From the NCBI GenBank assembly GCA_029194535.1, contig JARFXR010000001.1, positions 1,248,721 to 1,312,720 of the forward strand: DNA of 64,000 nt, written 5' to 3'. Both the position numbers and the translations under genes were made by a program. The notes beneath the pieces are model-generated. The model was not told where the DNA came from, searched no databases, and saw only the letters and a program-made list of their open reading frames with translations. Shown here one piece after another: positions 2,195 to 57,674 of the stretch; within the stretch, counting starts at the first letter, position 1, and every line of letters begins with the position of its first letter. Source of the stretch: Nitrospira sp. Lineage in GTDB: Bacteria > Nitrospirota > Nitrospiria > Nitrospirales > Nitrospiraceae.

Positions 2195-3238
2195 ATGCGC
2201 GCACCCATGACGGCCTATCAGCACATCTTGTTCATCAAACCCAGCTCTCTCGGCGACATCGTGCATGCCATGCCCACGCTCGCGGCAGTGCGGCGCGCTC
2301 ACCCGGACGCCACCGTGGGATGGCTGGTCAAGCGGCAGTGGGCGGGGCTGGTCGAGCGGATCGACGGAGTCGATCACCTGTGGGAAGTGGAGCCGGGGGT
2401 CAAGGGCTGGTTGTCGCTGGTGCCGGCGCTGCGCGCCGACCGGTTCGATCTTGCGATCGACCTGCAGGGCCTGTTCCGCAGCGCGATGATGGGCCGGTTG
2501 AGCGGCGCGCCCGAGCGCATCGGGTTCGCCAACGCGCGCGAGGGCAGCCCCTGGCTCTACACCAGACGTGTGGCGGTGCCGCATCCCAACATGCATGCCG
2601 TGGACCGGTATCTTCTGGTGGCCAAGGCGTTGGGAGCGGATGCGCGCCCGGCCGAATTCAAGTTCCGGATTCCCCACCGAGATCACGAGACGGTGGAGCG
2701 GGTTCTCCGGCAGGCGGGCTGGGCGGCCGGGGAACGGCTCATCGCGGTCAACGTATCCGCGCGCTGGCTCACGAAGCGGTGGCCGATCGCCTCATTCGCC
2801 GCGCTGTCGGATTTGGTCGTCCAGCGGGACATCGGCTCCGTCCTGTTCATCGGCGGGTCGGACGAGCGGGCGCAGGTCGCGCAGGTTCGCGGGTTGATGA
2901 AGGCCCGGTCGTTGGATCTCAGCGGCGCGCTGCCGGTGGGCCTGTTGCCGGCCCTGCTGAGTCGGGTCGAGCTGTTGATCACGAATGATTCCGGGCCGAT
3001 GCATATCGCCGCCGCCGTGGGCACGCCGGTGGCGGCGATGTTCGGTCCGACCAGTCCGCTGCGCACCGGACCCTACGGGACCGACCATGCGGTGCTTATG
3101 CATCCGGTGCCCTGCAGCCCCTGCTTCAGCCGGACCTGCTCGAATTCCCAGCCGCTCGTCTGCCTGACCGACATTACGGTTGACCGGGCCTTCTCGGTTG
3201 TGGCAAGTCTCCCTCGGCGGTCGGCACGATCCTTGTGA
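2195..3238 (+). CDS. waaC: ADP-heptose:LPS heptosyltransferase I-like (WaaC family, GT9)
   Basis: Product of 347 residues from ATG 2195; an in-frame ATG at 2207 is also possible, and the longer open frame back to 2102 overlaps waaF and is unlikely to be used. The N-terminus FIKPSSLGDIVHAMPTL is the classic GT9 opening, and NDSGPMHIAAAVGTP with AMFGPTSP forms the nucleotide-sugar site. A Cys-rich tail (PCSPCFSRTCS) follows. It should add the first heptose to Kdo of the inner core, before the WaaF domain acts. The gene begins 37 bases after waaF-gmhB and overlaps the next glycosyltransferase by 4 bases. Assignment to WaaC rather than another GT9 rests on gene order and motif. Confidence 0.82.
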   Translation: MRAPMTAYQHILFIKPSSLGDIVHAMPTLAAVRRAHPDATVGWLVKRQWAGLVERIDGVDHLWEVEPGVKGWLSLVPALRADRFDLAIDLQGLFRSAMMGRLSGAPERIGFANAREGSPWLYTRRVAVPHPNMHAVDRYLLVAKALGADARPAEFKFRIPHRDHETVERVLRQAGWAAGERLIAVNVSARWLTKRWPIASFAALSDLVVQRDIGSVLFIGGSDERAQVAQVRGLMKARSLDLSGALPVGLLPALLSRVELLITNDSGPMHIAAAVGTPVAAMFGPTSPLRTGPYGTDHAVLMHPVPCSPCFSRTCSNSQPLVCLTDITVDRAFSVVASLPRRSARSL

Positions 3239-17337: not shown

Positions 17338-17439
17338 TGTGGGGACCGGCTCCCGCCGTAGCCTGGCGAAGGCAGGCGCGTGGACAGGTGTCGCGGTCTC
17401 CGAGACGCGGGGAGGGGTGTCAGCCTCCGAGCCGTGGCC

Positions 17440-18864
17440 TTACGGCTGCAGGGCCTGTCGGTAGACGGTCAGCGTTTCTTCCACCATGCGGTCCAAACCG
17501 AAGCGTCCGGCAATGAAGGTCGGCGCCGCCTCGCTCAGACGTTCGCGTCTGGCCCGGTCGAGCAACAACGACAGCAGGGCCTCGGTCAAGCCGTCGATAT
17601 CCCCCACCTCCAACAACAAGCCGGTCCGGTCGTGACTGACGGCATCCGTCGCGCCGCCGGCCTTCGTGGCGACGACGGGACAGCCGAGCCATTGCGCTTC
17701 CAGCAAGACGTTGGGCGTGCCCTCCTGCCGCGACGCCAGGAGCAGGGCCGTGGCGGCGGCCATGACGACTTCCACGTCTTTTCTCCTGCCCAGCAATCGG
17801 AATCGATCGGAGAGGCCGTGCCGCGCGACGGCCTCGCGCAATTCGCTTTCGCAGGGACCTACGCCGGCCACCACGGCGTGGAGGTTGCGGATGCGGCTCA
17901 TCGCCCGTCGCACGACCTCGAAGAAGACCATCGGTTGCTTCTCCTCGCTCAGCCGGAATACGCCGGCGACGAGCGGGGCGCCGGACGGCAGCCGCACCTC
18001 GTCTCGAAACGATCGGACTCGATCGGGATTCGGGCGCACCACCGTGTCGAAGTCCACGCCGTTGTGCACCACCCGGAAGCGATCGACCTCCACGCCCAGC
18101 CACGTCGCATAGTCCTCGGCGCCCGGATGCGAATTGTTGATGAAGCGCACCTGCGGGAAGGAGGCCAGGAGTCGGTACCACGGCTTGAAGAGCGGATGGG
18201 CCAGATACGGAAAGTGATTCGGATTCACATTGCGCGTGGATAACACAATATGCGGAATCCCCGCGAGCAGCGCGGCGACGCCGGCCCAGATGTTGTTGTG
18301 GTCGAGCCAGGCATGAACGAGATCGGGCGGATCGATCAGCAATTCTCCCAGGATGTCGACCGTATAGGGGAGGAAGAAGACCGGCAGCTGATTGAGGAAC
18401 TCAAGCGCACCGGGCCTCGCTTTGAGCTTGCGGATGAAATCGGCGTTGAAGTCGGCGCCCGCGGCAAAGGCCCGGATACCGGCCCGCTGGAGCAGATCGG
18501 CATAGTGCGCATCGTCGTCGACGGATTCGCGCAACGTCAGCACCCGGAGTTCCAGGCCCCGCCGGCTTGCGCCGACGACGAAGTTGCAGAGCTGCCGTTC
18601 GGCCCCTCCCGGAATCAAACCTCCGATGCAGTGCAGCACGCGCAACTTGCTGAAGTCGGGCGCGGGACGCTCGTTCGGCGGGATGCGCCGGAGGAGCGCC
18701 GCCATCGGGGAGGGGATCGACGGGTTAATGGAGTCGTAATGCCACCGGCGGGCAAGTCCATGGAGCCATGGGGCGCGGCGCTGGAGCATCCAGGCCAGGC
18801 GTTTCAGCCGAGGAACCGGCGGCGACCCCGCTTGCCCCGCCACCCACGCTGCATAGCTGCCCAT
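17440..18864 (-). CDS. GT4 family glycosyltransferase (only minus-strand gene)
   Basis: 474 residues, longer than its GT4 neighbours because of an N-terminal extension of ~70 residues before LRVLHCIGGLIPGGAERQL. The donor half has GVFRLSEEKQPMVFFEV, LLGRRKDVEVVMAAATALLLAS, and SRQEGTPNVLLEAQWLGCPVVAT with an intact EX7E motif, then TGLLLEVGDIDGLTEAL. The basic, Trp-rich N-terminal extension may bind membrane, or the true start may be an internal ATG. Specificity unknown. It faces the wbp genes and is divergent from the ABC-transporter block, so it has its own promoter between 18865 and 19034. Confidence 0.85.
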   Translation of the reverse strand: MGSYAAWVAGQAGSPPVPRLKRLAWMLQRRAPWLHGLARRWHYDSINPSIPSPMAALLRRIPPNERPAPDFSKLRVLHCIGGLIPGGAERQLCNFVVGASRRGLELRVLTLRESVDDDAHYADLLQRAGIRAFAAGADFNADFIRKLKARPGALEFLNQLPVFFLPYTVDILGELLIDPPDLVHAWLDHNNIWAGVAALLAGIPHIVLSTRNVNPNHFPYLAHPLFKPWYRLLASFPQVRFINNSHPGAEDYATWLGVEVDRFRVVHNGVDFDTVVRPNPDRVRSFRDEVRLPSGAPLVAGVFRLSEEKQPMVFFEVVRRAMSRIRNLHAVVAGVGPCESELREAVARHGLSDRFRLLGRRKDVEVVMAAATALLLASRQEGTPNVLLEAQWLGCPVVATKAGGATDAVSHDRTGLLLEVGDIDGLTEALLSLLLDRARRERLSEAAPTFIAGRFGLDRMVEETLTVYRQALQP

Positions 18865-18963
18865 AGTGATCCGAAGTGATCCGACGATGAAGATGAGCCC
18901 CGAACGGTGTCGGCGATGGACCGATCAACGCGTTTTGTAGCAAGAAGTCTTCACCGGACGGAG

Positions 18964-18979
18964 CTAGGGGTAACCCTAG
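18964..18979. promoter_or_regulatory. Perfect 6-bp-arm palindrome in a divergent promoter region
   Basis: CTAGGGGTAACCCTAG reads as CTAGGG-GTAA-CCCTAG. It lies in the 170-base region between two divergent genes, 56 bases upstream of the ATG at 19035 and 100 bases from the minus-strand start. Such a short AT-centred dyad looks like a regulator binding site, but which regulator is unknown. Confidence 0.4.
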
Positions 18980-19034
18980 TACATCGATCGTGGTCGTTGT
19001 GTGAACGTGGAAGGCACGCAAGGGGGTTCACTAG

Positions 19035-20171
19035 ATGCGTTACGAATTCGGAAAGAACTGGTCGGAGTTCGCGCGCCGGCATGTCACGGACGAGCGGATC
19101 GAGACGGCCCGCCGGTGCCTGCTCGACTTCCTGAAGCTGGACGATCTGCGAGGCAAGACCTTCCTGGATGTCGGCTGCGGAAGCGGAATCCATTCGCTCG
19201 CGGCCTACCGGGCCGGCGCGAGCCGGGTCGTCGGATTCGACTACGATCCCGATTCGGTGCAGACCAGTCGCATGGTCCGCGAGCAGGCCGGATCGCCGGA
19301 CAACTGGGAAATTTTGCAGGGTTCGGTCCTCGACCGTCCCTTCTTGGACAAGCTGGATCGGGCGGACATCGTCTACAGCTGGGGTGTCCTGCACCATACG
19401 GGGAGCATGTGGGAAGCGGTCGCGAACGCCTCCTCGCTGATGAAGCCGGACTCCGTCTTCTGTATCGCCCTCTACACGACCGACATCTTCATCGATCCCA
19501 CACCGGAGTTCTGGCTCTCCCTGAAACAACGCTACAACCGCGCCGGAGCGTTCACCCGTCGTTGCATGGAATGGCGCTATGCGTTGTGGGCGACCATTCT
19601 GCCCGAGTTGCGGGCGGGCCGGAACCCGTTCACGCACATCCGCGAATACGGGCGGTCGCGCGGCATGTCGTATTGGACGGACGTGAAGGATTGGCTGGGC
19701 GGCTGGCCGATGGAGTTTGCGGGCATCGCGGAGACGAAAGCCTTCTGCGCGGATCAACTCGGCCTGGAACTGCTGAATATCACGGCGGGCGAAGCGAACA
19801 GCGAATATTTGTTCCGGAGGAAGGGCGCCGCCAACTATTGGGACGCCGTCGCCGGGCGCCGTACGGAGGTCGCCCTCCACGCTCCGTTCGCTCATGAAGC
19901 GGGACACGCCTGGGTCGCTCATCTCCCGCAGTATCAGGCGGAAGCCGATCGAGTTGAGGCGCCTCGACGATCCCGAATGATGCTGTGTGAAGACGGATTG
20001 CCGCTGGGCTTTGCGCATGCGCCGCATGCCCAGATCGAGGCCTACGGCGGAAGCCGGTATTCCCATTGGGGCGACCGTCTGGTGTTTTCGTCGACCGACC
20101 ACAGCAATCCCAACACGAACGGCCGACGATATTCGATCTATCTCGACGTGGGGAGCGGTTCCGAGTCATGA
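19035..20171 (+). CDS. SAM-dependent methyltransferase with C-terminal beta-rich module
   Basis: 378 residues from ATG 19035, with AAGGGGG upstream. Residues ~30-150 are a class I methyltransferase: TFLDVGCGSGIHSLAAYRAG (motif I), VVGFDYDPDSVQTSR, ADIVYSWGVLHHTGSMWEA. The sequence TAGEANSEYLFRRKG ends the catalytic part near residue 270. Residues ~285-372 form a separate module with YSHWGDRLVFSSTDHSNP and NGRRYSIYLD, which is recognisably repeated twice at the end of the next protein. The stop codon overlaps the next start (ATGA), so both are probably translated together. It likely methylates a glycan or lipid-linked sugar; the extra module may bind the shared substrate. Confidence 0.8.
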   Translation: MRYEFGKNWSEFARRHVTDERIETARRCLLDFLKLDDLRGKTFLDVGCGSGIHSLAAYRAGASRVVGFDYDPDSVQTSRMVREQAGSPDNWEILQGSVLDRPFLDKLDRADIVYSWGVLHHTGSMWEAVANASSLMKPDSVFCIALYTTDIFIDPTPEFWLSLKQRYNRAGAFTRRCMEWRYALWATILPELRAGRNPFTHIREYGRSRGMSYWTDVKDWLGGWPMEFAGIAETKAFCADQLGLELLNITAGEANSEYLFRRKGAANYWDAVAGRRTEVALHAPFAHEAGHAWVAHLPQYQAEADRVEAPRRSRMMLCEDGLPLGFAHAPHAQIEAYGGSRYSHWGDRLVFSSTDHSNPNTNGRRYSIYLDVGSGSES

Positions 20172-22060
20172 GTCTCGCCAAGAGGGTGGCGGATTCGACC
20201 GAAGTCCTGCTGAACCGGTTCATCGCGAAGGGTTACAGCGACAAGGTCGCGGCGCTGCTCTGGCGACGCCATCCGGCGTCCGCCTACTTGCTGGCGCGCG
20301 GCGGGGCGGACGTCCCGCCCCCGGTCTTCTGCAATCTAGCCCTTACGAACAAGTGCAATCTCCGCTGTGAAATCTGCGGCAGTCAGAAGTATCTCGATGA
20401 GACCGGCGTGATTCGCAGCCACATGCAGTTGGACGTGTTCTACGCCGTCGCCGAAACGCTCTTCCCGTTCATGGTGGAGGTCGAATTAAACAGCCAAGGC
20501 GATCCTCTCCTGCATCCGCAGATCGAGGCGATATTGGGGACGATCGGCGTCTACGGCTGCGACGTGAAGGTACAGACCAATGGGACCCTGTTCACGGATC
20601 GGGTCATCGACGTACTGCTTCGCCAGCGGGGCAAGGTCATGTTGTCGTTGGATGCCGTCGGTCCCCGCTTCGATGAAGTGCGGCGGGGCGGCGAATGGGC
20701 CAAGGCCGCGCCGCAGTTGGTGAAGTTTCTGCTCCGGCGCGACCGGGGACGGCTTCGGGTCGGCGTCTACCCGACACTGACCCGGCGGACACTCGCCGAT
20801 GCGTTGCGGGTCGTGCAGTGGTCGCTGAACCACGGCATCGAAGAGGTGGCATTTCACCGATACAGTCCCATTCAGAATTCGTTCGAGGAGGCGCCGAGTC
20901 CGGATGAACTGGCCGCGACGGCCGGTCGACTCCGGGACTGGTTGGCGCGCAACGGCGACTTTATCAGAGTGAGCCTCGACGGCGATCCTCTGAACGCGGG
21001 CGGCGTCTGGATGGATTCGGCGCGAACCCGCTTGCACTGGAATCTCAAGCGGCTGCTGGCGATCGGTCAACACCGGATGCTGTTTCCACGCGGTCCCGAC
21101 GACTACCGAGCTGATCCGCTCCGCATTTGCGCGGCCCCCAGCTACTATGTCGAGATCGGGCTCGACGGCCAGATGAGCGCCTGCTGCCGCGCGCAGGATG
21201 TGGTATTGGGGTACGCGACGTCGGTGACAGACTTTGCCGACGCGTGGTTCGGCCGCAACTACGCCGGCATCCGGGCCTCGCTCCGCCGGGACGCCTCGGG
21301 ATTGCTCCCGTTGCCCAATTGCGAAGACTGCATCCGCTTCCACGTGCCAGGTCTCTACGACGGCCGCCGGGCGTCTCATGCCACTGATGCGGGGGCGGAG
21401 TCGCCGGAGACGCTCGTCTGGCCGGATCATCACGCCGTCAAGATCGAATTCATCCAGCAGGAAGCAGGCCATTGCCATCTTGCCGTCCTGCCGCCCGGCG
21501 TCGGCGCCGAACACTATGAGTTATGGGAGAACGAGACGCTCCTCGGACCCCGACAGGTGTTGCATGCCGAGGTCAGAGAATACGGCGGGGGATCCTATTA
21601 CATCGGAGACCGCAAGCTCTATTTCAGCACGTCGGACAACTCGGATGCCAGACGGAACGGGCGCGTCTATCGCTTGAAGAAGCGCCGGCAGGAGCCGGCG
21701 CCGCCGGATGTCGTTCCACCTGCCGAGGAGGAACCCCGTCACGAGGTGCCGTTGAAGTTCATTCACAGAGAAATCGGCCTCTGCGCCATCGCGAGCTTGC
21801 CGCCGGGCATCGGCGATGAGCAGTACGAACTTTGGGAGGACGACACCAGGCTCGGCCCCAAGGCTTCCCTTCATGACGACATTCGGAAATGCGGACAGGG
21901 GCGGTATTCGATCTGGGGCGCACAACTGTATTTCAGCTCCTCCGACGATTCCGATCCGAAGGAGAACGGACGGACCTATCGGTTGAAGCGGTCGAAACAA
22001 CAAGATGGGGACCGGCTGGCCTATGCGGCTCAGGTCGGCTCGGAACCGGAGCGACGGTGA
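20168..22060 (+). CDS. Radical SAM/SPASM protein with two copies of the C-terminal module
   Basis: 630 residues from ATG 20168 (ATGA overlap with the methyltransferase gene). The radical SAM cluster motif CNLRCEIC gives Cys 63, 67 and 70; QGDPLLHPQIEAIL, VKVQTNGTLFTDRVIDVL, and MLSLDAVGPRFDEVRRGG are core segments. SPASM-type cysteines are at 321, 339, 340, 385 and 388 (CRAQDV and NCEDCIRF contexts) and would bind an extra Fe-S cluster. Two tandem modules follow at ~421-505 (YYIGDRKLYFSTSDNSDA) and ~527-610 (YSIWGAQLYFSSSDDSDP), each ending NGR-x-YRLK. SPASM enzymes modify peptides or, in glycan loci, sugars. The substrate here is unknown; the operon context with Wzm/Wzt points to glycan. Confidence 0.82.
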   Translation: MSLAKRVADSTEVLLNRFIAKGYSDKVAALLWRRHPASAYLLARGGADVPPPVFCNLALTNKCNLRCEICGSQKYLDETGVIRSHMQLDVFYAVAETLFPFMVEVELNSQGDPLLHPQIEAILGTIGVYGCDVKVQTNGTLFTDRVIDVLLRQRGKVMLSLDAVGPRFDEVRRGGEWAKAAPQLVKFLLRRDRGRLRVGVYPTLTRRTLADALRVVQWSLNHGIEEVAFHRYSPIQNSFEEAPSPDELAATAGRLRDWLARNGDFIRVSLDGDPLNAGGVWMDSARTRLHWNLKRLLAIGQHRMLFPRGPDDYRADPLRICAAPSYYVEIGLDGQMSACCRAQDVVLGYATSVTDFADAWFGRNYAGIRASLRRDASGLLPLPNCEDCIRFHVPGLYDGRRASHATDAGAESPETLVWPDHHAVKIEFIQQEAGHCHLAVLPPGVGAEHYELWENETLLGPRQVLHAEVREYGGGSYYIGDRKLYFSTSDNSDARRNGRVYRLKKRRQEPAPPDVVPPAEEEPRHEVPLKFIHREIGLCAIASLPPGIGDEQYELWEDDTRLGPKASLHDDIRKCGQGRYSIWGAQLYFSSSDDSDPKENGRTYRLKRSKQQDGDRLAYAAQVGSEPERR

Positions 22061-22076: not shown

Positions 22077-22937
22077 ATGGCGCAAACGACTGTGCCGTGG
22101 TCGATCACCGGCTCGGCGCGCGCGCCGCGCGGGACCGGCGGCCTGATCGAGACGCTCATCGGCCGCCGCCGTCTGGTTTGGCAGATGGCGAAGCGGGAGG
22201 TGCGCGACCGCTATGCGGGGCAAGCGCTGGGCACCGTGTGGGCCGTGGCCCATCCCATCCTCCTGATGGGACTGTACCTGTTCCTGTTCACCTTTGTGTT
22301 TCCGTCCCGCATGCCCTTCGGCGGCGGTCAGGGCGGCGCGGTCACGTACATTCTGGCCGGCTTGATTCCCTGGATGACGTTCGCGGATGCCATGGCGCGC
22401 GGCACCGGGGCGATCGTGAACGAAGCCGGTCTGGTCAAGCAGGTGGTCTTTCCGGTCGAGATCCTCCCGGTCAAGTCGGTGCTGGCCGCCGCGCTTCCGC
22501 AAGGCATCGCGACGTTGGTTCTTCTCGTCTATATGGCGATCGTCGATCGGCATGTGCCGGTTCTCGCCGCGTCGCTGCCGGTTCTCTTTTTTCTGCAGCT
22601 GATGGTGATGACCGGCGTGGTCTACGTACTGTCGTCCGTCGGGGCCTATGTCCGGGACTTGCGTGAGGTGGTCCAGGTCTTTGTGAGCGCCGGCATCTTT
22701 CTCGCGCCCATTCTGTACTCGGAAGGCGCGGTCGAGCGGATAGTGCCGGGGTTCGCCATGCTGCTGTCGTTGAATCCGTTCAGCCATCTGATCTGGTGTT
22801 ACCAGGACGCGCTGTACTACGGCCGGCCGGTTCATCCCGTCTCCTGGCTGCTGCTGCTCGTCGTGAGCCCGGCCGCGCTGTTCCTGGGTCATCGGATCTT
22901 TCGGAAGCTCAAACTCATGTTCGGCGAGGTGCTATGA
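22077..22937 (+). CDS. wzm: Polysaccharide ABC transporter permease (Wzm)
   Basis: 286 residues. A hydrophobic ABC-2 type permease with about six membrane segments (for example around residues 60-77, 85-105, 140-160, 170-195, 200-220 and 255-275). The N-terminal cytoplasmic part WQMAKREVRDRYAGQALG and AVAHPILLMGLYLFLFTFVF are characteristic of Wzm/KpsM-type exporters. It should form the channel moving a complete lipid-linked O-polysaccharide to the periplasm. It overlaps wzt by 4 bases. Confidence 0.92.
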   Translation: MAQTTVPWSITGSARAPRGTGGLIETLIGRRRLVWQMAKREVRDRYAGQALGTVWAVAHPILLMGLYLFLFTFVFPSRMPFGGGQGGAVTYILAGLIPWMTFADAMARGTGAIVNEAGLVKQVVFPVEILPVKSVLAAALPQGIATLVLLVYMAIVDRHVPVLAASLPVLFFLQLMVMTGVVYVLSSVGAYVRDLREVVQVFVSAGIFLAPILYSEGAVERIVPGFAMLLSLNPFSHLIWCYQDALYYGRPVHPVSWLLLLVVSPAALFLGHRIFRKLKLMFGEVL

Positions 22938-24277
22938 CGGTCGAGGCCGAGGCGCCCGCGATCCGGGTGCGACATCTTTCGAAGCGGTTCGAAATCTATC
23001 GGCGGCCGGCCGATATGCTCCGTGAGCTGATCACCAGGCGGCCGAGGCACGAGGAACGATGGGCGCTCCGCGACGTGAGCTTCGAGCTGCGCCGAGGCGA
23101 GGTGGTGGGAATCATGGGGCGCAACGGCGCGGGAAAGAGCACGCTCCTGAAGATTCTGACGGGGACACTGGAGCGGACGGGCGGCGACGTCGAGGTGGAG
23201 GGTAAGGTGACGTCGATCTTGGAACTGGGCACCGGGTTTCACCCCGAATATACGGGTCGCGAAAATGTCTACATGGGAGGGCTCTGCCTGGGCCTCACCA
23301 ACGATGAGATCGATGAGCGGATCGAGGGCATCATCGCGTTCAGCGAACTGGGCGAGGTCATCGATCAGCCGTTCAAGACCTATTCGACCGGGATGCAGGC
23401 CCGGCTGACCTTCAGCACGGTGGTGAGCGCCGATCCCGACATCCTGATCGTGGATGAGGCCCTGTCGGTGGGCGACGCCCGGTTCCAGAAGAAGTGCTGC
23501 GATAAGTTCCGATCGTTTCGCGAGGCCGGAAAGACCATTCTCCTGGTGTCACACAGCGCCGATGCCATCACGTCGATGTGCGATCGGGCGATTCTGCTCG
23601 AGAACGGGACCGTCGCGGCCGATGCGGAACCATGCTACGTGACCAAGTTCTATCATCGGATGTTGTTCGGGGGACTGAGTGAAGAGGGCGAGGCTGTCGA
23701 TCAAGATCGACGACTCGCGGGTGAGAGCCTGGTTGCGGCATCCACCGCTGTCCACGGTGCTCACGACTCGACGGACCGATCGGTTAAAGGGGGTGCCGAG
23801 GGGCCGTCGGAAGCGCAGCACCGTGGTGAAATGCGCTACGGCGACCGAAAGGCCGAGATCATGGAGTTGAGTATACGGAATCATGAAGAGAAGCCCCTTG
23901 TCCGGTTATCATCCGGCAATTCATATGCTTTTGTCTTGCGGGGACTGGCCCACGAGGATCTTGATGACCTCGAAGTGGGATTTCTGGTGCGTGATCACCG
24001 AGGACTCGACATGTTCGGCACAGACACGCTCCTGCAAGGGATTCGAGTGGCTCCTCGCCTGCGCACCGAGTTATTTGAAGTGCGGTTAGAAGTAACGATG
24101 TGGATAGCGCCCGGCAGCTATTTTCTCACCGCCGGTATCGCACGTGCCAACGGCATTCAATATGATCTGCGCTACGACGCCTTGGCTTTTGAAGTTGAGG
24201 GCGCTCTCAACATCTATACCGATTCAAAGGTCAATCTCGACGCCAAGTTTTCTGTCCGCGGATTAGGGACGGCGTGA
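22934..24277 (+). CDS. wzt: Polysaccharide ABC transporter ATPase with C-terminal carbohydrate-binding domain (Wzt)
   Basis: 447 residues from ATG 22934, overlapping wzm. The ATPase half has Walker A GRNGAGKST at 62-70, signature YSTGMQARL from residue 150, Walker B ILIVDEAL and the switch HSADA. A linker (~250-300) leads to a C-terminal beta-sandwich (~305-447), with RYGDRKAEIMELSI, LVRLSSGNSYAFVLR, and FEVEGALNIYTDSK; this matches Wzt proteins whose C-terminal domain recognises the modified non-reducing end of the O-antigen. DNA coding the C-terminal domain is clearly less GC-rich than the ATPase part. The domain implies a capped chain as export substrate. Confidence 0.93.
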   Translation: MTVEAEAPAIRVRHLSKRFEIYRRPADMLRELITRRPRHEERWALRDVSFELRRGEVVGIMGRNGAGKSTLLKILTGTLERTGGDVEVEGKVTSILELGTGFHPEYTGRENVYMGGLCLGLTNDEIDERIEGIIAFSELGEVIDQPFKTYSTGMQARLTFSTVVSADPDILIVDEALSVGDARFQKKCCDKFRSFREAGKTILLVSHSADAITSMCDRAILLENGTVAADAEPCYVTKFYHRMLFGGLSEEGEAVDQDRRLAGESLVAASTAVHGAHDSTDRSVKGGAEGPSEAQHRGEMRYGDRKAEIMELSIRNHEEKPLVRLSSGNSYAFVLRGLAHEDLDDLEVGFLVRDHRGLDMFGTDTLLQGIRVAPRLRTELFEVRLEVTMWIAPGSYFLTAGIARANGIQYDLRYDALAFEVEGALNIYTDSKVNLDAKFSVRGLGTA

Positions 24278-24307: not shown

Positions 24308-25003
24308 ATGGGTATCGCGTTTTCATTCTTGCCGTTTTTTGATGCCTGCTTCGAGCAAGGGGCTCTGCGGAGTCCTGTTCTCGCTTTGGGATCCCTCAGC
24401 ATTCATGAGTTGCCAGAAACCATCGCAGTTCTAGCTGCGCGCCATTCCTACTCTCATCTGGCGGGCGATCCCTCAGTGCGTGCCCTGATGCGAGATCGCT
24501 ACGGGATCACGGCATACCAGGATTGTGATGTAAACGGTCTAGCCGATCTGAATCTCGACATCGGCAAGCCGTTGGACTCCGGCTGGAAGGGAAGATTCGG
24601 CACGGTACTGAATGGAGGAACCATTGAACATGTGTTCGATGTGCGTCAGGCCATGTCCAACATCCATGAGTTGGTCCGTCCCGGAGGCGCGATGATTCAC
24701 TTGGCTCCGGTGACTTGGATCAACCACGCGTTTGTGAACTTCAATCCGAGGATGTTCCAGTCAATCGCCGACGTGAATCGCTATGAGATCCTCGTTGAAG
24801 ATTTCCAAATTCCGTCCACCGCACATGCCGAGGAGGATTGCCGCCGTTATCTGGCGACGAAAGGAAATAGACCCGACACGATGACCGAACGGGTTTCCGC
24901 AGTCTTGAGCGCGCCCTCCCTGCCTTCCAATATTCTGTACATGATCGCCATGCGAAAGATCAGTGAAGAGGATTTCAATGTTCCCTACGATGTGACCACA
25001 TGA
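24308..25003 (+). CDS. Probable SAM-dependent methyltransferase, divergent
   Basis: 231 residues from ATG 24308. The usual glycine-rich loop is poorly conserved; the recognisable part is FGTVLNGGTIEHVFDVRQAM followed by HELVRPGGAMIHLAPVTWINH, which corresponds to motifs II-III of class I methyltransferases in glycan clusters. FNPRMFQSIADVNRYEILVE is a common downstream segment. The gene is AT-richer than the island average, like the wzt 3' end and the next two genes, suggesting that they arrived together. Probable function: methylation of a sugar in the exported glycan. Confidence 0.65.
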   Translation: MGIAFSFLPFFDACFEQGALRSPVLALGSLSIHELPETIAVLAARHSYSHLAGDPSVRALMRDRYGITAYQDCDVNGLADLNLDIGKPLDSGWKGRFGTVLNGGTIEHVFDVRQAMSNIHELVRPGGAMIHLAPVTWINHAFVNFNPRMFQSIADVNRYEILVEDFQIPSTAHAEEDCRRYLATKGNRPDTMTERVSAVLSAPSLPSNILYMIAMRKISEEDFNVPYDVTT

Positions 25004-25035
25004 TCGATCGAGAGACGTCTTGATTCGGAGCAGTC

Positions 25036-25998
25036 GTGAGAACCGACGGCATGGAATACATATCGTGCAATTTGTGCGGAAGCGATCGCACCGCACTGAT
25101 GTTTCGTCGCAGTGACACGAGGTTTCTCGTCTCCGATGAGGCCTTCGCAGTCGTCAAGTGCCTCGCGTGCTCACTGGTGTATGTGAACCCACGGCCCGAA
25201 GAAAAAGAAATTCGAAAGTACTACACCGATGAATTTTATCAAGCAGAGTTGTCACCAGAACAGGCCTTGGAAGGCAATCGTGGACGAATCGAGGCCATGT
25301 ACCGCCATGTTCAACATCTCCCGGCGGGCCGCCTTCTCGATATCGGCTGCTACAAGGGCGAGTTTCTCTATTTCATGAAGAACAAGGGCTGGACGGTGAG
25401 CGGCCTGGAGTTCTACTCGAGGCCTCCGAATCTGTTCGGTCTGAATATTCATTATGGAGAAATCGACAGTGCCTCGTTTGAGCCGAGTTCACTCGATCTC
25501 GTTACGATGTGGGCCGTCTTAGAGCATGTCTACGATCCCAAGCGCCTCCTGGCTCAAGTCCGACAATTGTTGAAGCCGACTGGTGAGTTGATCATTCTCG
25601 TGCCGAACTTCAACAGCATCCCGGCGCGCTTCATGCGGCATGACGATGTGCCGCGTCATACGACCATGTTCACAAGAGAAACGCTCTATTCGATGTTGAG
25701 AGTATCGGGTTATAAGGCGCTCAGTTGTATGTGCGACCAAGGTGTCTACAGCGGATCAGTGCGTGGCGTTCTCAACTATATGGTCAAATGTTGTGGAGGC
25801 GAAAGCGTAGAGGAGATTGTGGCTCAAAATCGGCGTCCCGAGCGTTGGCATGAGTTCTCAAGACAATTGAGAGGGAAAGAAAGCCCGTTTATCGGAAGAA
25901 TTGACTTGTGGGATCAGTTTCTTACTCCATACCTCGATGCTGTACTGGACCGACTGGGACTCGGGTTTATCATGACTGTCAGGGCAATACCTGTATGA
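25036..25998 (+). CDS. SAM-dependent methyltransferase with N-terminal zinc ribbon
   Basis: 320 residues from GTG 25036; ATG 25051 is an equally reasonable start. An N-terminal ribbon has CNLCGSD and CLACSLVYVNPRP (two CX2C pairs). The catalytic domain shows GRLLDIGCYKGEFLYFMKNK (motif I), LVTMWAVLEHVYDPKRLL, and LKPTGELIILVPNFNS. The RHTTMFTRETLYSMLRVSG segment follows. This architecture is frequent in methyltransferases modifying O-antigen or capsule sugars. Base composition is AT-richer than the flanking genes. Its stop overlaps the start of the next small frame (ATGA). Confidence 0.8.
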   Translation: MRTDGMEYISCNLCGSDRTALMFRRSDTRFLVSDEAFAVVKCLACSLVYVNPRPEEKEIRKYYTDEFYQAELSPEQALEGNRGRIEAMYRHVQHLPAGRLLDIGCYKGEFLYFMKNKGWTVSGLEFYSRPPNLFGLNIHYGEIDSASFEPSSLDLVTMWAVLEHVYDPKRLLAQVRQLLKPTGELIILVPNFNSIPARFMRHDDVPRHTTMFTRETLYSMLRVSGYKALSCMCDQGVYSGSVRGVLNYMVKCCGGESVEEIVAQNRRPERWHEFSRQLRGKESPFIGRIDLWDQFLTPYLDAVLDRLGLGFIMTVRAIPV

Positions 25999-26282
25999 CG
26001 ACACTTGATCTTTGCCGGAACAAGATGCTTCGAATCGATACCGGGAAACCAGTCAGCCTGCATTTCGATCACCATCGCGTGATCCGGGACGATGACTACA
26101 GCGGGCAATATCAGCCGATCGAATACAGTAGCCGGTTCGACGATCAGTGGCGGCTATCCCTGGAGCGTCGGGTGGGCTTTTGCCGGCACACCGATTTTAC
26201 CCTCTGTTGGGGTGTCGTGATGCTGAATCAGGACGAGCCGCACAAGTGCGCCTATCACATGCTGGGGCGAAAAACGGGATGA
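25995..26282 (+). pseudogene. Small 95-codon frame, probable remnant of a larger glycan gene
   Basis: 95 codons from ATG 25995, which overlaps the previous stop as an ATGA. The first part (HFDHHRVIRDDD, QPIEYSSRFDDQWRLSLER, GFCRHTDF) looks like the N-terminus of a larger enzyme, and the last part (EPHKCAYHMLGRKTG) like the C-terminus of one, with nothing resembling a catalytic core between. The simplest reading is an internal deletion of a methyltransferase-like gene. It could instead be a genuine small protein, since the coupling to the upstream gene is intact. I do not recognise a family with confidence. Confidence 0.4.
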
Positions 26283-26334
26283 TGCGGCAGGGGCGTACCG
26301 ACCTTCACCGATTCGACCGAGGAGACCGTTGACC

Positions 26335-27330
26335 ATGTTGTCGTCCTGGTTGTCCATTCCCTCACGAGTGTACCGGCGTTTCCGCGGCGGTGCGGCGGCG
26401 CGGGAGTGTATCCACGAATACTACGCGAGGCGACCGGACAGTGAGGCCCAATTGCGGCAAGAGGTGCGGTTCGCCGCGGCCTGCGGTGGAGAATATGCGG
26501 AGAACATCGTCCGTGAGTTGGGGCGCCGAATCGGGCCGGCGCCGGATCTTTCGTCGCTGTCGGTGCTCGAATTGGGCCCCGGAATCAACTTCGGCGCCTC
26601 GCTGGTTTGCGCCATGTTGGGCGCGCGGGTGACCGTCTTCGACAAATATCTCGTGGAATGGCACGAGGCCTACCACCCGCGGTTCTACCGGCTGCTGCGG
26701 GCGGAGTTGGAGGCAGCCGAGCGGCCGTTCGACCTGCGCCTTCTCGACCGGGTCATCACGGAATGCCGCCATCCGGCCGGGGTGATCGAGGCCGGACGCG
26801 GGGATCTCGGCTCCGGCCGGCTCGACCTCGCGACCGGCTCCTTCGACGCGATCGTCTCAAACGCCGCGCTGGAACACGTCGCGGACGTGCCGAAGCTTTG
26901 CGCCGAGTTGTGGCGCGTCACCCGCCCGGGCGGGGTGGGCATTCACCAGATCGATTTTCGCGACCATTCGAATGACCGGCGTCCATTGGATTTCCTCGCC
27001 GTGTCGGACGACCGGTATGCGCGCACGTTCGTCGGCGGGCAGGGCGGCGGCGGCAACCGCGTCCGGCCCTCGGAATTCCGTGCCGCATTCAGGGAAGCGG
27101 GATTCGACGTGATCCGCTTCGAGCCCAACTGTTTCGCCGACGGCGCCTACGTCGAGGCCGTTCGTCCGGGCCTGCTGCCTCGGTACGCGTCTCTCTCCGT
27201 CGAGGAGTTGCGGGTCGTGGGGGGGCGGATTTTTCTCAAACGACCAAACGAGGAACAGGGCCTGGTTGGTCCTCACGGCGCGGCCTCCGTGCCGGGCGGA
27301 GTGGGGAGCGCTCTCTCACAATGGACCTGA
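26335..27330 (+). CDS. Class I SAM-dependent methyltransferase
   Basis: 331 residues from ATG 26335, with GGAG upstream. Motif I appears as LSVLELGPGINFGASLVCAM, followed by ARVTVFDKYLVEWHEAY; the acidic residue after VFD would bind the ribose of SAM. DAIVSNAALEHVADVPKLCA and VTRPGGVGIHQIDFRDHS are the typical downstream motifs, and FDVIRFEPNCFADGAYVE the C-terminal part. GC-rich again, unlike the three preceding frames. It overlaps the double-methyltransferase gene by 10 bases. Substrate probably a glycan hydroxyl or carboxyl. Confidence 0.8.
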   Translation: MLSSWLSIPSRVYRRFRGGAAARECIHEYYARRPDSEAQLRQEVRFAAACGGEYAENIVRELGRRIGPAPDLSSLSVLELGPGINFGASLVCAMLGARVTVFDKYLVEWHEAYHPRFYRLLRAELEAAERPFDLRLLDRVITECRHPAGVIEAGRGDLGSGRLDLATGSFDAIVSNAALEHVADVPKLCAELWRVTRPGGVGIHQIDFRDHSNDRRPLDFLAVSDDRYARTFVGGQGGGGNRVRPSEFRAAFREAGFDVIRFEPNCFADGAYVEAVRPGLLPRYASLSVEELRVVGGRIFLKRPNEEQGLVGPHGAASVPGGVGSALSQWT

Positions 27331-29150
27331 TGAACATCATGCGGCCGTCGATGACGCTTGATGAGCTGTATGAACAGCTTCTGACGACCTACGCCGACCT
27401 GGGCTACCAGCGTGAATTGGTCAGCCATTGGGCGCTTCCCGGCCGTGACTTCCGTCGACTCCTGGCGGAGATCGAGGAAGCGGCTCCGCTGCGGCTCCTC
27501 GAAGTGGGCACGTTCGTGGGATTGTCGACGCTGGCGATGGCGTTCAAGACGGGAGAGAGCGCGGTGATCCACACCGTGGATCCCAACTTTCCCCTGCAGG
27601 TCGAGCTTCAGGCGATGCAGACCCAGAGCCGGGAGGCCGACCTCACGGTCCGGTCCCAAGCGCTCGCGCGCGAAGCGGCCGAACGCTTGGGGCTGGCCCA
27701 TAAGATCGTATTCCACGCCGGAGGATTTTCCACTCCCGCGACCTTCGCCTCGACCAAGACCGATCCGGCCCATACGACCCCGGTCGTCGGGCCGGATGTT
27801 TGCCGGTCGCACGGCCCCTTCGATCTCATCTTCATCGACGGCCTGCACTACAGCGACGCGGTCCTGGAGGATCTGCGGCTGGCGAGGCCTCATCTGCGGC
27901 CCGGCGGCCGGATCGTCCTGCATGATGTGATCGGTTGCTGGGGGTCAAACGTGCGTCGGGCCGTTTACCAGTTCCTGGCCGAAACGCCGGGATTGACCTT
28001 TCGGCACGCACGCTACGCCGACCTCTACGAGGCGATCGGGGTGATCGAACAGGCCACCGATCGTCCGGGCGCATCCGTTCCGGCGGCGACCGAACAGCCG
28101 GCCGGCTCCGGTCTCTTCGAGCAACCGGGATTCGCCGAGCACCTTGCGGCCGTCGTCTACAACCTCTGCCGGCCCGCGAGCGTGATCTGTCTCGGTCCCG
28201 ACAAAGGAGGGCTGCTGGCGCAGTTGGGTCGCTGTGGGGTGGAGCATCTGATCGGCGTCGGGAAAGAGACTCCCCCGATCAAACAGCATGCCGGGTCGCT
28301 TCGTTGGGAGGCGTTCGATTACCGATCGGTCTATCGGCCTCGTGCGCGCGTGGACCTGTGCCTGTGTGTCACGGACGAGCACGATCTCCGCGCGACGTCC
28401 TACCGGGATCTGGTTGCATCCTGCGCGGTCACCAGCGACACGGTCCTGTTCTGTTCGACCCCGCCGGGTGAAGCGGTGACCGCCGGGCATGACGCCTTGC
28501 CGATCGAAAGTTGGGTGCGCGAGTTCTGGAAGCACGGCTATCGCTTCCACGACGTCGTCCGCCCGAGTTTCGAGCCGCTGCGGTTCGGAAATTCCCCTGC
28601 GCCGGTCTACGACGTGCGCTCGACGGAGCTGGCGAACCTCTATCTGGTCCGCCGCGACCCCTCGCCGCGGCCCTGGTCCGACGAGGCGGTGGAGGTTGTG
28701 CTGGTGGAAAAGGAGCGGCGCATCGAAGACCTCACCCTCCAGGGCCTGTTCAGCGACGTCGCCCTCCGGCACGCGTTGGAGGAATCCCACGCGGCGCAGC
28801 AATGGATCGCGGAGAGAGATCGCCGGTTGCTGGCGCAGGAACAGACGATCGCCGATCGCCAGGAACTGGTCAGGCAAGGCGAGGCGTCGGTACGCGTGCT
28901 GGAGGGGATGCTGGCCCGTTCCAGCGCGTTGGTGCAGGAACAGGAAAGGGTGATCGCACAAGAGCGGCAGGAGACGGCCGAGTGCGAACGGCAGATCGCG
29001 GAGCAGGGGCGAGTCATCGCCGAGCAGGGGCGCGTCATCGACGGGATCGAGCAGAGCCTGGAGTACCGCGTGGCGTTGCGCCTGGGCCGGTACCCCAGGC
29101 TCCTGCGGTTGGCCGTGCGATGTTGGCGCGCTCTCTTTCGCCGGCAGTAG
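27321..29150 (+). CDS. Double methyltransferase-like protein with C-terminal coiled coil (WbdD-like architecture)
   Basis: 609 residues. Region ~50-245 is a Methyltransf_24-type domain: LRLLEVGTFVGLSTLAMAF, IHTVDPNFPLQ, and DLIFIDGLHYSDAVLEDL then LRPGGRIVLHDVIG. Region ~265-445 looks like a second Rossmann-type domain (VYNLCRPASVICLGPDKGG, VDLCLCVTDEHDL), without a clear motif I. Region ~456-580 is strongly heptadic, Glu/Gln/Arg-rich (EQGRVIAEQGRVID is an exact-looking seven-residue repeat), predicted coiled coil. The final ~25 residues are basic and amphipathic (YPRLLRLAVRCWRALF), suited to membrane attachment. E. coli WbdD caps ABC-exported O-antigen and uses a coiled coil as a length ruler; this protein, five genes after wzt, may do the same. 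Confidence 0.7.
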   Translation: MDLMNIMRPSMTLDELYEQLLTTYADLGYQRELVSHWALPGRDFRRLLAEIEEAAPLRLLEVGTFVGLSTLAMAFKTGESAVIHTVDPNFPLQVELQAMQTQSREADLTVRSQALAREAAERLGLAHKIVFHAGGFSTPATFASTKTDPAHTTPVVGPDVCRSHGPFDLIFIDGLHYSDAVLEDLRLARPHLRPGGRIVLHDVIGCWGSNVRRAVYQFLAETPGLTFRHARYADLYEAIGVIEQATDRPGASVPAATEQPAGSGLFEQPGFAEHLAAVVYNLCRPASVICLGPDKGGLLAQLGRCGVEHLIGVGKETPPIKQHAGSLRWEAFDYRSVYRPRARVDLCLCVTDEHDLRATSYRDLVASCAVTSDTVLFCSTPPGEAVTAGHDALPIESWVREFWKHGYRFHDVVRPSFEPLRFGNSPAPVYDVRSTELANLYLVRRDPSPRPWSDEAVEVVLVEKERRIEDLTLQGLFSDVALRHALEESHAAQQWIAERDRRLLAQEQTIADRQELVRQGEASVRVLEGMLARSSALVQEQERVIAQERQETAECERQIAEQGRVIAEQGRVIDGIEQSLEYRVALRLGRYPRLLRLAVRCWRALFRRQ

Positions 29151-29190: not shown

Positions 29191-31047
29191 ATGTGCGGCA
29201 TAGCCGGCGTAATCGATCACGGAGCAGGATTCGGACCGCAGCGGCTGCGGGAGATCGTCACCGCGATGCGGGATACCATGGTACATCGGGGACCGGACGA
29301 TGCCGGCCTTTGGATCGAGCCGGACGGCTCCTGCGCCCTGGCGCATCGGCGGCTCTCGATTCTGGACCTGACCGCGGAGGGGCGGCAGCCGATGGCCGAC
29401 CCGGACGGTTCGGTGGTCGTCACGTTCAACGGCGAGATCTATAACTTCCAGTCGATCCGCGCGGTGCTCGAGCGGCAGGGCCGCCGGTTCCATTCCAGGA
29501 CCGATACGGAGGTGCTGCCCCATCTGTTCGATGGGCTGGATCCGCGGCGGCTCGCCGAGCTGGACGGGATGTTCGCGTTCGGCTGCTGGCACCGCGCGCA
29601 GCGCCGGCTCTTGTTGGCACGGGATCCGTTCGGCAAGAAGCCGCTGTACTACGCGGCGGGAGCCGGCTGGTTTGCATTCGCGTCGGAACTGCAGGCGCTG
29701 CGCTGCGTGCCGGGATTCGACGACGGCATCGACGAGGATGCGCTGGCTCTGTATCTGCTTCTGCAATACATTCCCGCGCCCTGGACCATCTTCCGGAGCG
29801 CCAGAAAACTGCCGCCCGGCTCCTATCTGTCGGCGGATTTTTCAGGCCGCTCCGTCCCCGAGCCCCTCGTGCGGCGGTATACGACGTTCGACGCATGCGA
29901 GGCGCCGGTCTCGCTGCCGAGGTCGTCCGAGGACCGCGAGGCGGCATTGCGGCGTCTGGTGCTGGAGGCGGTGGAAAAACGGCTGATCAGCGATGTGCCC
30001 TTGGGGGCCTTTCTGTCGGGCGGCGTCGATTCCTCGCTGGTCGTCGCGATGATCACCCGAGAACTCGGACGCCCGATCCAGACCTTCTCCATCGGCTTCG
30101 AAGGCACCGAGGACACGGAACATGTCTTTGCCAGACAGGTTGCAGCCCATCTTGGGACCGATCATCACGAGCAGCTCGTGACTCCCGATGCGGTCGCGCT
30201 GGTGGAGGATGTCGCCGCCATGCTGGACGAGCCGAACGGCGATACGAGTTGCCTGCCGACATACCTCCTCTGCCGCTACACGAGGCAATTCGTGACGGCC
30301 GCCGTGTCCGGAGACGGAGGCGATGAAATGTTCGGCGGCTACGGACGGTATCGCGACACGTTGCTGGAAGCGGGAGACTGGCTCGGCCGGCTCCGCCGCA
30401 GCGTCCGCGAGCGACGCTGGAGCAGTTCGGCCGATGCCTATCTGTCGCCCCGATGGCTCATGTTCCAGCCGGAGCAGGTGGCGGAGCTGCTCGGCGGGCT
30501 CTCGCCGATGCTCGAGCAGCAGATCCAAGAGTGGCGGGATCAGCTGAACGATCCACGGCGGCCTCTGATTCATCGCATGCGGAATCTGGATGTGGCGACC
30601 TATCTGCCGGGCGCGGTCTTGGGAAAAGTCGACCGGATGAGTATGCAGGTGTCGCTGGAGGTCCGGTGCCCGTTGCTCGACCGCCAAGTGGCGCAGTTCG
30701 CCCAATCGCTGTCGGCCGCCGATTGCTGGCGCGCCCCGCAGGACACCAAGCGGATTCTGAAGCGGCTGGCCTCGCGCTATCTGCCCGAGCCCTGGGTGAA
30801 GAGAAAGAAGATGGGATTCGGCCTGCCCGCGAGCGCCTGGTCCCGGGACGAAATGTTGAGCCTGGCCGGCGACCTCATCCTTGCGCCGTCGGGTCAGCTC
30901 GCGGGACTCACGGATCGGGCAGCCTTGCGTCGATTGGTCGAACGGCAACGGTTCCCCGGTTGTTTTTCCATCTATCGGGTCTGGCCTCTGCTCATTCTGG
31001 AATTATGGCTTCGCAAGAGTCGAGATCGAGCCCTTTCGGCGGTCTAG
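29191..31047 (+). CDS. asnB: Asparagine synthase-like glutamine amidotransferase (AsnB family), copy 1
   Basis: 618 residues. Starts MCGIAGVID with the nucleophilic Cys2 of class II glutamine amidotransferases; VHRGPDDAG, AHRRLSILDL, and FNGEIYNFQSIRAVL complete the glutaminase domain (~1-210). The synthetase domain has the PP-loop SGGVDSS at 276-282, SGDGGDEMFGGYGRY, and KVDRMSMQVSLEVRCPLLD. In polysaccharide loci such enzymes often amidate uronic acids on sugar nucleotides or glycans, as WbpS is proposed to do in Pseudomonas O-antigens. It follows the coiled-coil protein gene by 40 bases. Confidence 0.9.
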   Translation: MCGIAGVIDHGAGFGPQRLREIVTAMRDTMVHRGPDDAGLWIEPDGSCALAHRRLSILDLTAEGRQPMADPDGSVVVTFNGEIYNFQSIRAVLERQGRRFHSRTDTEVLPHLFDGLDPRRLAELDGMFAFGCWHRAQRRLLLARDPFGKKPLYYAAGAGWFAFASELQALRCVPGFDDGIDEDALALYLLLQYIPAPWTIFRSARKLPPGSYLSADFSGRSVPEPLVRRYTTFDACEAPVSLPRSSEDREAALRRLVLEAVEKRLISDVPLGAFLSGGVDSSLVVAMITRELGRPIQTFSIGFEGTEDTEHVFARQVAAHLGTDHHEQLVTPDAVALVEDVAAMLDEPNGDTSCLPTYLLCRYTRQFVTAAVSGDGGDEMFGGYGRYRDTLLEAGDWLGRLRRSVRERRWSSSADAYLSPRWLMFQPEQVAELLGGLSPMLEQQIQEWRDQLNDPRRPLIHRMRNLDVATYLPGAVLGKVDRMSMQVSLEVRCPLLDRQVAQFAQSLSAADCWRAPQDTKRILKRLASRYLPEPWVKRKKMGFGLPASAWSRDEMLSLAGDLILAPSGQLAGLTDRAALRRLVERQRFPGCFSIYRVWPLLILELWLRKSRDRALSAV

Positions 31048-36874: not shown

Positions 36875-38779
36875 ATGTGCGGCATCGCAGGCATCGTGCA
36901 TCTTGACGGGGCTCCGGCCTCGCCGGTGTTGCTGAAGCGCATGACCGACGCCATCACCCACCGGGGTCCCGATGGGGAAGGTCAATGGGTCAGAAGCCAT
37001 GTGGCGCTTGGCCACAGGCGCCTGGCCATCATCGATCTGTCTCCGGCCGGGCATCAACCGATGGTGACGCCGGATGGGCGGTATGTCCTCACCTACAACG
37101 GGGAGATTTACAATTTCCAGGAAATCCGCGCTGAGTTGGAGAGCCTTCGTTACCGGTTCCGATCCAGGACCGATTCCGAAGTGCTCCTCTATGCTCTTGC
37201 CGAATGGGGAGTCAAGGCGCTCGAGCGGTTCAACGGGATGTTCGCCTTTGCGCTTTGGGACGAGAAGGAGCAGACGCTGGTCCTGGCCCGGGATCGCTAT
37301 GGCGTCAAGCCGCTGTACTACGTGGCGGCGGGAAACACGCTGCTCTTCGGCTCCGAGATCAAGGCGATCCTTGCGCATCCGGCGTATGAAACCGTACTCG
37401 ACCGTGAGGCACTGCTCGAATACTTCACCTTTCAGAACTTCTTCACCGACCGAACTCTCTTCAAAGGCGTCAAGCTGCTGCCGGCCGGCACCTACGCGAC
37501 CATTCGTCCAGGAAGAGGCGACCTGACGAGCACACGGTACTGGGACTATCGCTTCGTCGAACCGGAAACCGCGGGCGACGAGAAGGAATATGCCGAAGAA
37601 CTCAGTCGGCTGTTCCGGCAGGCCGTCAACCGCCAATTAATCAGCGACGTGGACGTCGGTTCGTACCTGAGCGGCGGGATTGATTCCGGGTCCATTACCG
37701 CAGTCGCCGCATCGCAGCTGCCCTATATCAAGACGTTCACGACCGGATTCGATCTGAGCTCGGTGTCCGGCGTCGAACTCGGCTACGACGAGCGGGCCAG
37801 AGCCGAGCATATGTCCTACTTATTCAAGACCGAGCACTATGAAATGGTGCTCAAGGCCGGCGACATGGAGCGCATCATGTCTCGCCTCGTCTACCAGCTG
37901 GAAGAACCGCGAGTGGGACAGAGTTATCCGAACTTTTACACGGCTCAACTTGCCAGCAAGTTCGTGACGGTCGTGCTGTCCGGAGCCGGCGGAGACGAGT
38001 TGTTCGGCGGATATCCCTGGCGGTATTACCGAGCGGTCGTGAACGATGATTTTGAACACTATATCGACAAGTACTATCTCTTCTGGCAACGACTCATTCC
38101 CAACAAGGCGATTCAGCAGGTATTCAGGCCGATCTGGAAGGACGTCTCGAAGGTGTGGACCCGGGATATTTTCCGTGATGTGTTCCAAAAGCATGCGGAG
38201 ACGTTTACCAGGCCGGAGGACTATGTCAGTCATTCGCTCTATTTCGAAGCGCGGACCTTCCTCCACGGACTGCTGGTCGTGGAGGACAAGTTGTCCATGG
38301 CGCACAGCCTCGAAACCCGAGTGCCGTTTCTGGACAACGACCTGGCCGACTTTGCTCAGCGTCTTCCTGTCCGATTCAAACTCGGCAACCTGGACGAAGT
38401 GGTGAAGCTCAATGAAAACGAGCCTGGCGCCAAGACACGCAAGTACTTTGAGCGCACCCGCGACGGGAAGCTGCTTCTCCGCAAAGCGATGCAGAACTAC
38501 ATACCGGACGCGATCACTCAAGCGGAGAAGCAGGGATTCGCGGCCCCTGATGCCAGCTGGTTTCGAGGGGAGAGCATCGACTATGTCCGCAAGCTCCTGT
38601 TCAAGGGGGCTCCACGGATCTACGCATTTTTCGATCGAGAGGCCATTCAGCGCTTGGTCGACGAACATCTGGACGGACGTCAGAACCGCCGGCTCTTGAT
38701 CTGGTCGCTGGTCTATTTCGAGGAATGGTGCCGAACCTTTCTCGACGGCGGCGCGCGGAAACAGGAGCAGGTGCGTTGA
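36875..38779 (+). CDS. asnB: Asparagine synthase-like amidotransferase (AsnB family), copy 2
   Basis: 634 residues. Glutaminase domain: MCGIAGIVHLDG (Cys2), THRGPDGEGQW, GHRRLAIIDLSPAGHQPM, TYNGEIYNFQEIRAEL. Synthetase domain: PP-loop SGGIDSG at 266-272, where the usual last Ser is Gly, then SGAGGDELFGGYPWRYYR, and VEDKLSMAHSLETRVPFLD. Intact by length and motifs. It sits in an amino-sugar cassette and overlaps the FemAB-like gene by 4 bases, suggesting that they act on the same product. Confidence 0.9.
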   Translation: MCGIAGIVHLDGAPASPVLLKRMTDAITHRGPDGEGQWVRSHVALGHRRLAIIDLSPAGHQPMVTPDGRYVLTYNGEIYNFQEIRAELESLRYRFRSRTDSEVLLYALAEWGVKALERFNGMFAFALWDEKEQTLVLARDRYGVKPLYYVAAGNTLLFGSEIKAILAHPAYETVLDREALLEYFTFQNFFTDRTLFKGVKLLPAGTYATIRPGRGDLTSTRYWDYRFVEPETAGDEKEYAEELSRLFRQAVNRQLISDVDVGSYLSGGIDSGSITAVAASQLPYIKTFTTGFDLSSVSGVELGYDERARAEHMSYLFKTEHYEMVLKAGDMERIMSRLVYQLEEPRVGQSYPNFYTAQLASKFVTVVLSGAGGDELFGGYPWRYYRAVVNDDFEHYIDKYYLFWQRLIPNKAIQQVFRPIWKDVSKVWTRDIFRDVFQKHAETFTRPEDYVSHSLYFEARTFLHGLLVVEDKLSMAHSLETRVPFLDNDLADFAQRLPVRFKLGNLDEVVKLNENEPGAKTRKYFERTRDGKLLLRKAMQNYIPDAITQAEKQGFAAPDASWFRGESIDYVRKLLFKGAPRIYAFFDREAIQRLVDEHLDGRQNRRLLIWSLVYFEEWCRTFLDGGARKQEQVR

Positions 38780-57670: not shown

Positions 57671-57674
57671 TGTG

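Follow-up and report, generated by a model that had tools for sequence, protein, structure and literature searches.

A coil-protein gene in a polysaccharide island

The window, a stretch of 64,000 nucleotides from a Nitrospira genome that was analysed as a whole, is an LPS/polysaccharide island. It contains three GT9 heptosyltransferases and other glycosyltransferases, with a WecA-type initiator further along. Within the island, genes for the ABC transporter permease Wzm (22077-22937) and for Wzt (22934-24277), an ATPase with a C-terminal cap-binding-type domain (Wzt_C at about 23831-24199, E 6.9e-24), are followed by a run of methyltransferases that extends from 24308 to 29150. This run begins with a small methyltransferase adjoining Wzt (24308-25003) and continues with a Methyltransf_23 protein (25036-25998), which lacks a close counterpart in the sister locus, and a Methyltransf_11 protein (26329-27330). 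It ends with the gene of interest (27321-29150), the product of which we call the coil protein. Wzm, Wzt and the listed genes of the methyltransferase run all lie on the + strand. Wzm and Wzt are thus found 3-5 kb upstream of the coil gene, and the sequence-only reading was right to place them in its vicinity.

The coil gene starts with ATG and encodes 609 amino acids, arranged as an O-methyltransferase, a probable pseudo-methyltransferase, a coiled coil and an amphipathic tail. Full-length relatives were present in 2 of the 269 genomes of the class, namely the source genome and that of one sister species (G046). No match was found in GTDB r220 contigs, plasmids, phages or IMG/VR, by contig scans for exact short peptides that miss divergent relatives. 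The sister species has two tandem copies in the syntenic locus, 82% and 51% identical to the window copy, which we refer to as the sister copy and the paralogue, respectively. Start and reading frame are kept in the sister copy, and the comparison of the two whole proteins gave a dN/dS of 0.16; judged by this conservation, the ORF is a real gene under purifying selection. Its ATG lies within the last codons of the Methyltransf_11 gene, and this 10-base overlap suggests that translation of the two proteins is coupled.

Several other features of the island were noted. A short ORF at 25908-26282 resembles a methyltransferase gene reduced to its two ends by loss of the middle, and an intact, longer counterpart lies within positions 2265-3743 of the sister locus L008. 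Wzx-type and Wzy_C-type genes (43468-44928 and 57513-58949) share the island with Wzm and Wzt, pointing either to two export routes or to an O-antigen ligase. Four asparagine-synthase-like genes (29191-31047, 36875-38779, 47921-49918 and 52482-54497) are present, suggesting amidated sugars. A fused multi-module polymerase was looked for near the coil gene and was not found. Finally, a module of about 95 amino acids (YELWEDxxxLGP...HxxIRxxGxGRYSxWGxxLYFSxSDxSDPxxNGRxYxL) recurs at 19875-20159, 21413-21697 and 21722-22006 of the window and at 1791-2075 and 4436-4720 of L008. One copy closes a methyltransferase, two belong to a radical-SAM protein, and the sister locus has the module in SGNH-type membrane proteins; Pfam gave no match to it at E 10, and it is possibly an undescribed glycan-binding module.

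Domain architecture of the coil protein

Domain 1 (residues 14-250; 27360-28070) is an intact Methyltransf_24 domain with a metal-dependent O-methyltransferase fold. The Pfam match covers residues 60-203 (E 5e-15) and lies above the curated cut-off. All the hallmarks of the family are present, that is the SAM motif ExGxxxG, the acidic end of strand 2, DGxH and the late Asp, and an alignment of nine rows of relatives showed E61, G63, G67, D87, D173, G174, H176 and D202 to be invariant. When modelled alone from these nine rows (three sequences were not enough), domain 1 reached a pLDDT of 79 and a pTM of 0.84. By fold, this model came closest to TrmR and to cation-dependent O-methyltransferases (Z 21.8, 179 residues, 2.2 A), with many other O-methyltransferases at Z about 20. 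Sequence matches in the PDB were weak; they included the sugar O-methyltransferases MycE and TylE, at residues 160-204, and, with a family profile, several O-methyltransferases. With a dN/dS of 0.07, domain 1 is also under tighter constraint than the rest of the head. Members of the COMT/TrmR-like fold group methylate hydroxyls using a divalent cation, and from its membership of this group domain 1 is predicted to do likewise.

The sequence-only reading had described two methyltransferase-like regions, and the second was borne out by its fold. Domain 2 (residues 262-447; 28104-28661) had no Pfam match even at E 10. It is the best part of the AlphaFold model of the whole protein, with block pLDDT values of 56-83 over residues 271-380 and lower values thereafter, and class I methyltransferases matched residues 262-446 of this model (Z 14.8 over 162 residues, 3.0 A; VIA-align). 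A profile of domain 2 detected intact distant relatives in eight genomes from another genus of the family (E 4e-7 to 8e-4). In these relatives motif I reads VLDAGCAKG and motif II YGxDxSxYA. In contrast, the three copies in the coil-protein family have replaced the Asp of motif I by Cys, Cys or Tyr and that of motif II by Gly, Gly or Gln, the window copy having Cys and Gly. The acids of motifs I and II normally hold SAM. Since both have been lost here and are kept in the intact relatives, domain 2 is probably a pseudo-methyltransferase rather than a second enzyme or a substitute for a kinase; it is more likely to be a degenerate structural or acceptor-binding domain. It also evolves faster than domain 1 (dN/dS 0.27 versus 0.07). 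A protein kinase domain was sought with Pfam between domain 1 and the coil, and none was found; the region has a methyltransferase fold.

The coil (residues 496-580; 28806-29060) was delimited by a heptad ladder, in which Ile, Leu or Val occupies every seventh residue from I496 to L580 at 12 of 13 positions. Among 5,000 shuffles of the tail the best reached 11 and none reached 12. A scan over the window and 16 comparison loci, 677 ORFs in all, turned up such a ladder in only three, each a member of the coil-protein family. An initial hydrophobic-moment scan was uninformative, and the ladder test was used instead. A COILS-type score was modest, with P up to 0.9 confined to residues 524-569 (46 residues), P 0.49 in the sister copy and P 0.75 in the paralogue; a GCN4 control gave P 1.00, and the ladder statistic is the better evidence. 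Among 50 window genes tested one other coil was seen, of 33 residues, in a GDSL lipase at 51107. AlphaFold placed the ladder inside a single helix of 99 residues (479-577), followed by a last helix at 592-607; the neck between domain 2 and the coil was poorly modelled. Structure prediction and coil analysis, among the checks proposed with the sequence-only reading, both support an extended coil (helix 479-577, ladder 12/13, P 0.9). The heptads claimed by that reading are real, but its estimate of some 120 heptadic residues was too long, the ladder spanning about 85.

A tandem duplication of 21 bp, or exactly one heptad (AEQGRVI-AEQGRVI; 28998-29039), is present in the window copy, and the sister copy is one heptad shorter. 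Indeed, all gaps in the coil are whole heptads. Alignment with the sister copy leaves a gap of 7 residues, and alignment with the paralogue two such gaps, 14 residues in all. The window copy and the paralogue share 58% of residues in domain 1, 52% in domain 2 and 68% in the tail; in the coil the figure drops to 23%, with the ladder kept. Exact-heptad changes combined with a drifting sequence are the pattern expected of a spacer that is selected for phase, not sequence.

The protein ends in a basic amphipathic helix (residues 591-608; 29091-29144), as had been noticed from the sequence. With a net charge of +6, this helix surpasses every other segment of the protein in hydrophobic moment. Over residues 581-609 the window copy is 93% identical to the sister copy and 68% to the paralogue, and the dN/dS of the tail is 0.03. 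We presume this conserved helix to be a membrane anchor.

Relatives of the coil protein and the reader domain of Wzt

In the sister species the paralogue is fused behind a Methyltransf_11-like domain, to give a protein of 859 residues. The fusion (16791-19370 of the sister locus L007) runs from the Methyltransf_11-like domain through Methyltransf_24, pseudo-methyltransferase and coil to the tail. Its Methyltransf_11-like domain is 41% identical to the separate neighbour encoded at 26329 in the window. Because a relative of this neighbour is joined to a paralogue of the coil protein, the 26329 methyltransferase and the coil protein plausibly act together.

The distant relatives detected through domain 2 are about 560 amino acids long and combine an intact methyltransferase with a coil that is short but strong (P 0.999 over residues 231-274 in the L061 protein) and with a second methyltransferase-like part. 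In 4/4 loci checked they are encoded directly behind Wzm-Wzt. These four loci come from one genus and count as one evolutionary case, and the profile search that led to them was blind to neighbourhood. In L061 (9748-11448) and in L062-L064, the methyltransferase-coil-methyltransferase protein stands behind Wzm and a Wzt that is too short for a cap-binding domain, the Wzt beside the L061 relative having 256 amino acids. The link is therefore to ABC export in general. In the genus of the window, no methyltransferase-coil protein was seen within about 10 kb of the eleven other Wzt_C loci. A general rule by which a Wzt_C locus implies a coiled-coil terminator failed in this genus, where the eleven loci gave Wzc-like coils and one unrelated short coil.

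The window Wzt does have such a domain. Its best solved relative is that of Aquifex aeolicus (8dky, 6o14; E 1.4e-7), which binds 3-O-methyl-mannose but not mannose, and in which Trp362 forms the lid of the methyl pocket and W362L abolishes LPS binding (PMC9445017). Leu300 and Thr346 of this pocket are kept in the window Wzt. In contrast, Ala348 is replaced by Gly, His350 by Ala and Trp362 by Leu, the last position having been placed by comparison with the sister copy and by inspection. These changes, including that of the lid, mean that the cap or ligand may differ. Thus, recognition of a methyl group by the window Wzt is possible, and identity with the Aquifex cap cannot be assumed.

Comparison of Wzt between the sister species (window 22934-24277 against L008 5544-6827) revealed a mosaic, with 94.3% identity in the ATPase and 44.4% in the C-terminal region. 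The methyltransferase at 24308 is 43.7% identical between the sisters, whereas most flanking genes are at 81-97%. It would appear that the C-terminal region of Wzt and this methyltransferase were replaced or diverged together, as if cap reader and modifying enzymes change together, and that the coil protein (82%) did not take part. The contrast between a reader at 44% and a coil protein at 82% is the main argument from within the locus against the coil protein being the sole maker of the cap, for in that case reader and enzyme would be expected to be conserved together.

A candidate terminator and spacer

Where O-polysaccharides are terminated, a coil carries the terminating enzyme at its distal end and keeps it apart from elongation, and a domain of Wzt reads the cap (PMC11231755, PMC5082667, PMC3482155); the coil is a characteristic marker of the strategy (PMC11231755). 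The locus contains the same layout, with an extended coil, an N-terminal O-methyltransferase, a C-terminal amphipathic segment and Wzm with a Wzt_C-bearing Wzt. WbdD (E. coli O9a/O8; K. pneumoniae O3/O5) likewise has an N-terminal class I methyltransferase, a second domain, a long coil and a C-terminal membrane-associated helix, and is likewise encoded with Wzm and a Wzt bearing a cap-binding domain. The coil protein departs from WbdD in several ways: its domain 1 belongs to the metal-dependent COMT/Methyltransf_24 type, its second domain has a degenerate methyltransferase fold and is not a kinase, and its coil and tail are shorter than residues 460-708 of WbdD. Homology to WbdD was considered and rejected, as its structures were absent at E <= 10 from PDB searches with the sequence and with a three-row profile, which leaves room for very remote similarity; the lists of fold matches were filled by other methyltransferases, and the absence of WbdD there proves nothing. 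The sequence-only reading had proposed a functional analogue of WbdD in which a second methyltransferase replaces the kinase. The analogy is supported by the layout and strengthened by the heptad indels, the conserved tail and the relatives behind Wzm-Wzt. The kinase replacement is not supported: domain 2 lacks both SAM-binding acids, and methyl-only, kinase-free terminators are already known from E. coli O8 and K. pneumoniae O5, the methyltransferase alone being needed in E. coli O8 (PMC3482155).

Two further systems are comparable. ORF6 of K. pneumoniae O7 (methyltransferase-kinase-CBM-coil-GT-GT) shares a methyltransferase head, an unannotated second domain, a coil and a locus for an ABC-dependent glycan, and some of its orthologues end after the coil; the kinase second domain, CBM and C-terminal glycosyltransferases of ORF6 have no equivalent in the coil protein. 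ORF7 of K. pneumoniae O4 (GT137) has two beta/alpha/beta domains with a methyltransferase-like sheet topology ahead of its coil (PMC11231755), and its locus likewise has a CBM-bearing Wzt. Its reaction is Kdo transfer, a TPR-like bundle precedes its coil, and it lacks a conserved-domain match (PMC11231755). The coil protein, too, has two domains of methyltransferase topology, but domain 1 is a true Methyltransf_24; this comparison draws on a model in which the neck is poor. The literature searched, outside which most subscription journals fell, gave no description of the same domain combination. Overall, the coil protein appears to work like WbdD without being its homologue by these tests; the capping strategy is known, and the combination of domains appears to be new.

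We are confident that the gene product is a membrane-associated coiled-coil O-methyltransferase of an ABC-exported glycan, leaving the substrate unspecified. Going further, we consider it somewhat more probable than otherwise, by analogy with the known terminators, that the coil protein, as a membrane-anchored rod, is both terminator, adding an O-methyl cap, and spacer of an ABC-exported surface glycan, which is most likely the LPS O-chain. For the coil protein itself we infer membrane attachment, oligomerisation, capping, control of chain length and recognition by Wzt. When a chain had grown long enough to reach the enzyme, domain 1 would methylate a hydroxyl on the chain's non-reducing terminal sugar. 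Domain 2, without normal SAM binding, would play a structural part or help to bind the acceptor. The resulting methyl cap would halt elongation and be read by the C-terminal domain of Wzt, licensing export. The overlapping 26329 methyltransferase probably works on the same complex. Weighing against this reading are the modest COILS-type score, the replaced lid residue and the greater divergence of the Wzt reader, the short Wzt of the distant relatives, the eleven Wzt_C loci that yielded no methyltransferase-coil protein, the failure to find a fused multi-module polymerase and the Wzx- and Wzy-type genes of the island.

The best-surviving alternative is that the coil protein decorates internal sugars at the membrane, with coil and tail serving only to oligomerise or anchor it, and length and export being independent. 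Several methyltransferases in a row make internal methylation of the glycan plausible, the C-terminal region of Wzt and the coil protein diverge at different rates, and the distant relatives are paired with a Wzt that has no room for a cap-binding domain. We nevertheless regard decoration as rather unlikely, since a plain anchor would need neither a coil of this length that changes by exact heptads nor so well conserved a tail, and since the layout is that of a known terminator marker (PMC11231755). It is less probable still that the coil protein is a scaffold, whose coil and domain 2 recruit neighbouring methyltransferases or glycosyltransferases to Wzm-Wzt and for which catalysis by domain 1 is secondary. 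The degenerate domain 2, the translational overlap with the 26329 gene and the fusion in the sister species to a relative of that neighbour would all fit such a role, but within the head domain 1 is under the tightest constraint, and its active site is intact. Very improbable, lastly, is a terminator of other chemistry, in which the two Rossmann domains form a glycosyltransferase-like head as in the Kdo-transferring GT137: ORF7-O4 does have two methyltransferase-topology domains before its coil (PMC11231755) and domain 2 has lost its SAM-binding acids, but domain 1 passes the curated Methyltransf_24 cut-off, keeps every SAM and metal-site residue and matches true O-methyltransferases at Z about 20, unlike ORF7-O4 with its lack of any conserved-domain match (PMC11231755).

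A bolder proposal, which we put forward tentatively and consider doubtful, is that the coil protein represents a distinct class of chain terminators. Such a class would pair a COMT-type O-methyltransferase with a catalytically dead one on a single coil, would have the neighbouring methyltransferase as partner, either fused or separately encoded, and would have a multiply methylated cap and a ruler tunable in whole heptads.

What is known of coiled-coil terminators comes mainly from E. coli and Klebsiella. One from a distant lineage, with another enzyme head, a dead second domain and exact-heptad variants, would test how general the ruler is. Moreover, the copies of the coil protein would test whether coil length, and not sequence, is selected, and their natural coil-length variants form a small set for comparison with glycan length.
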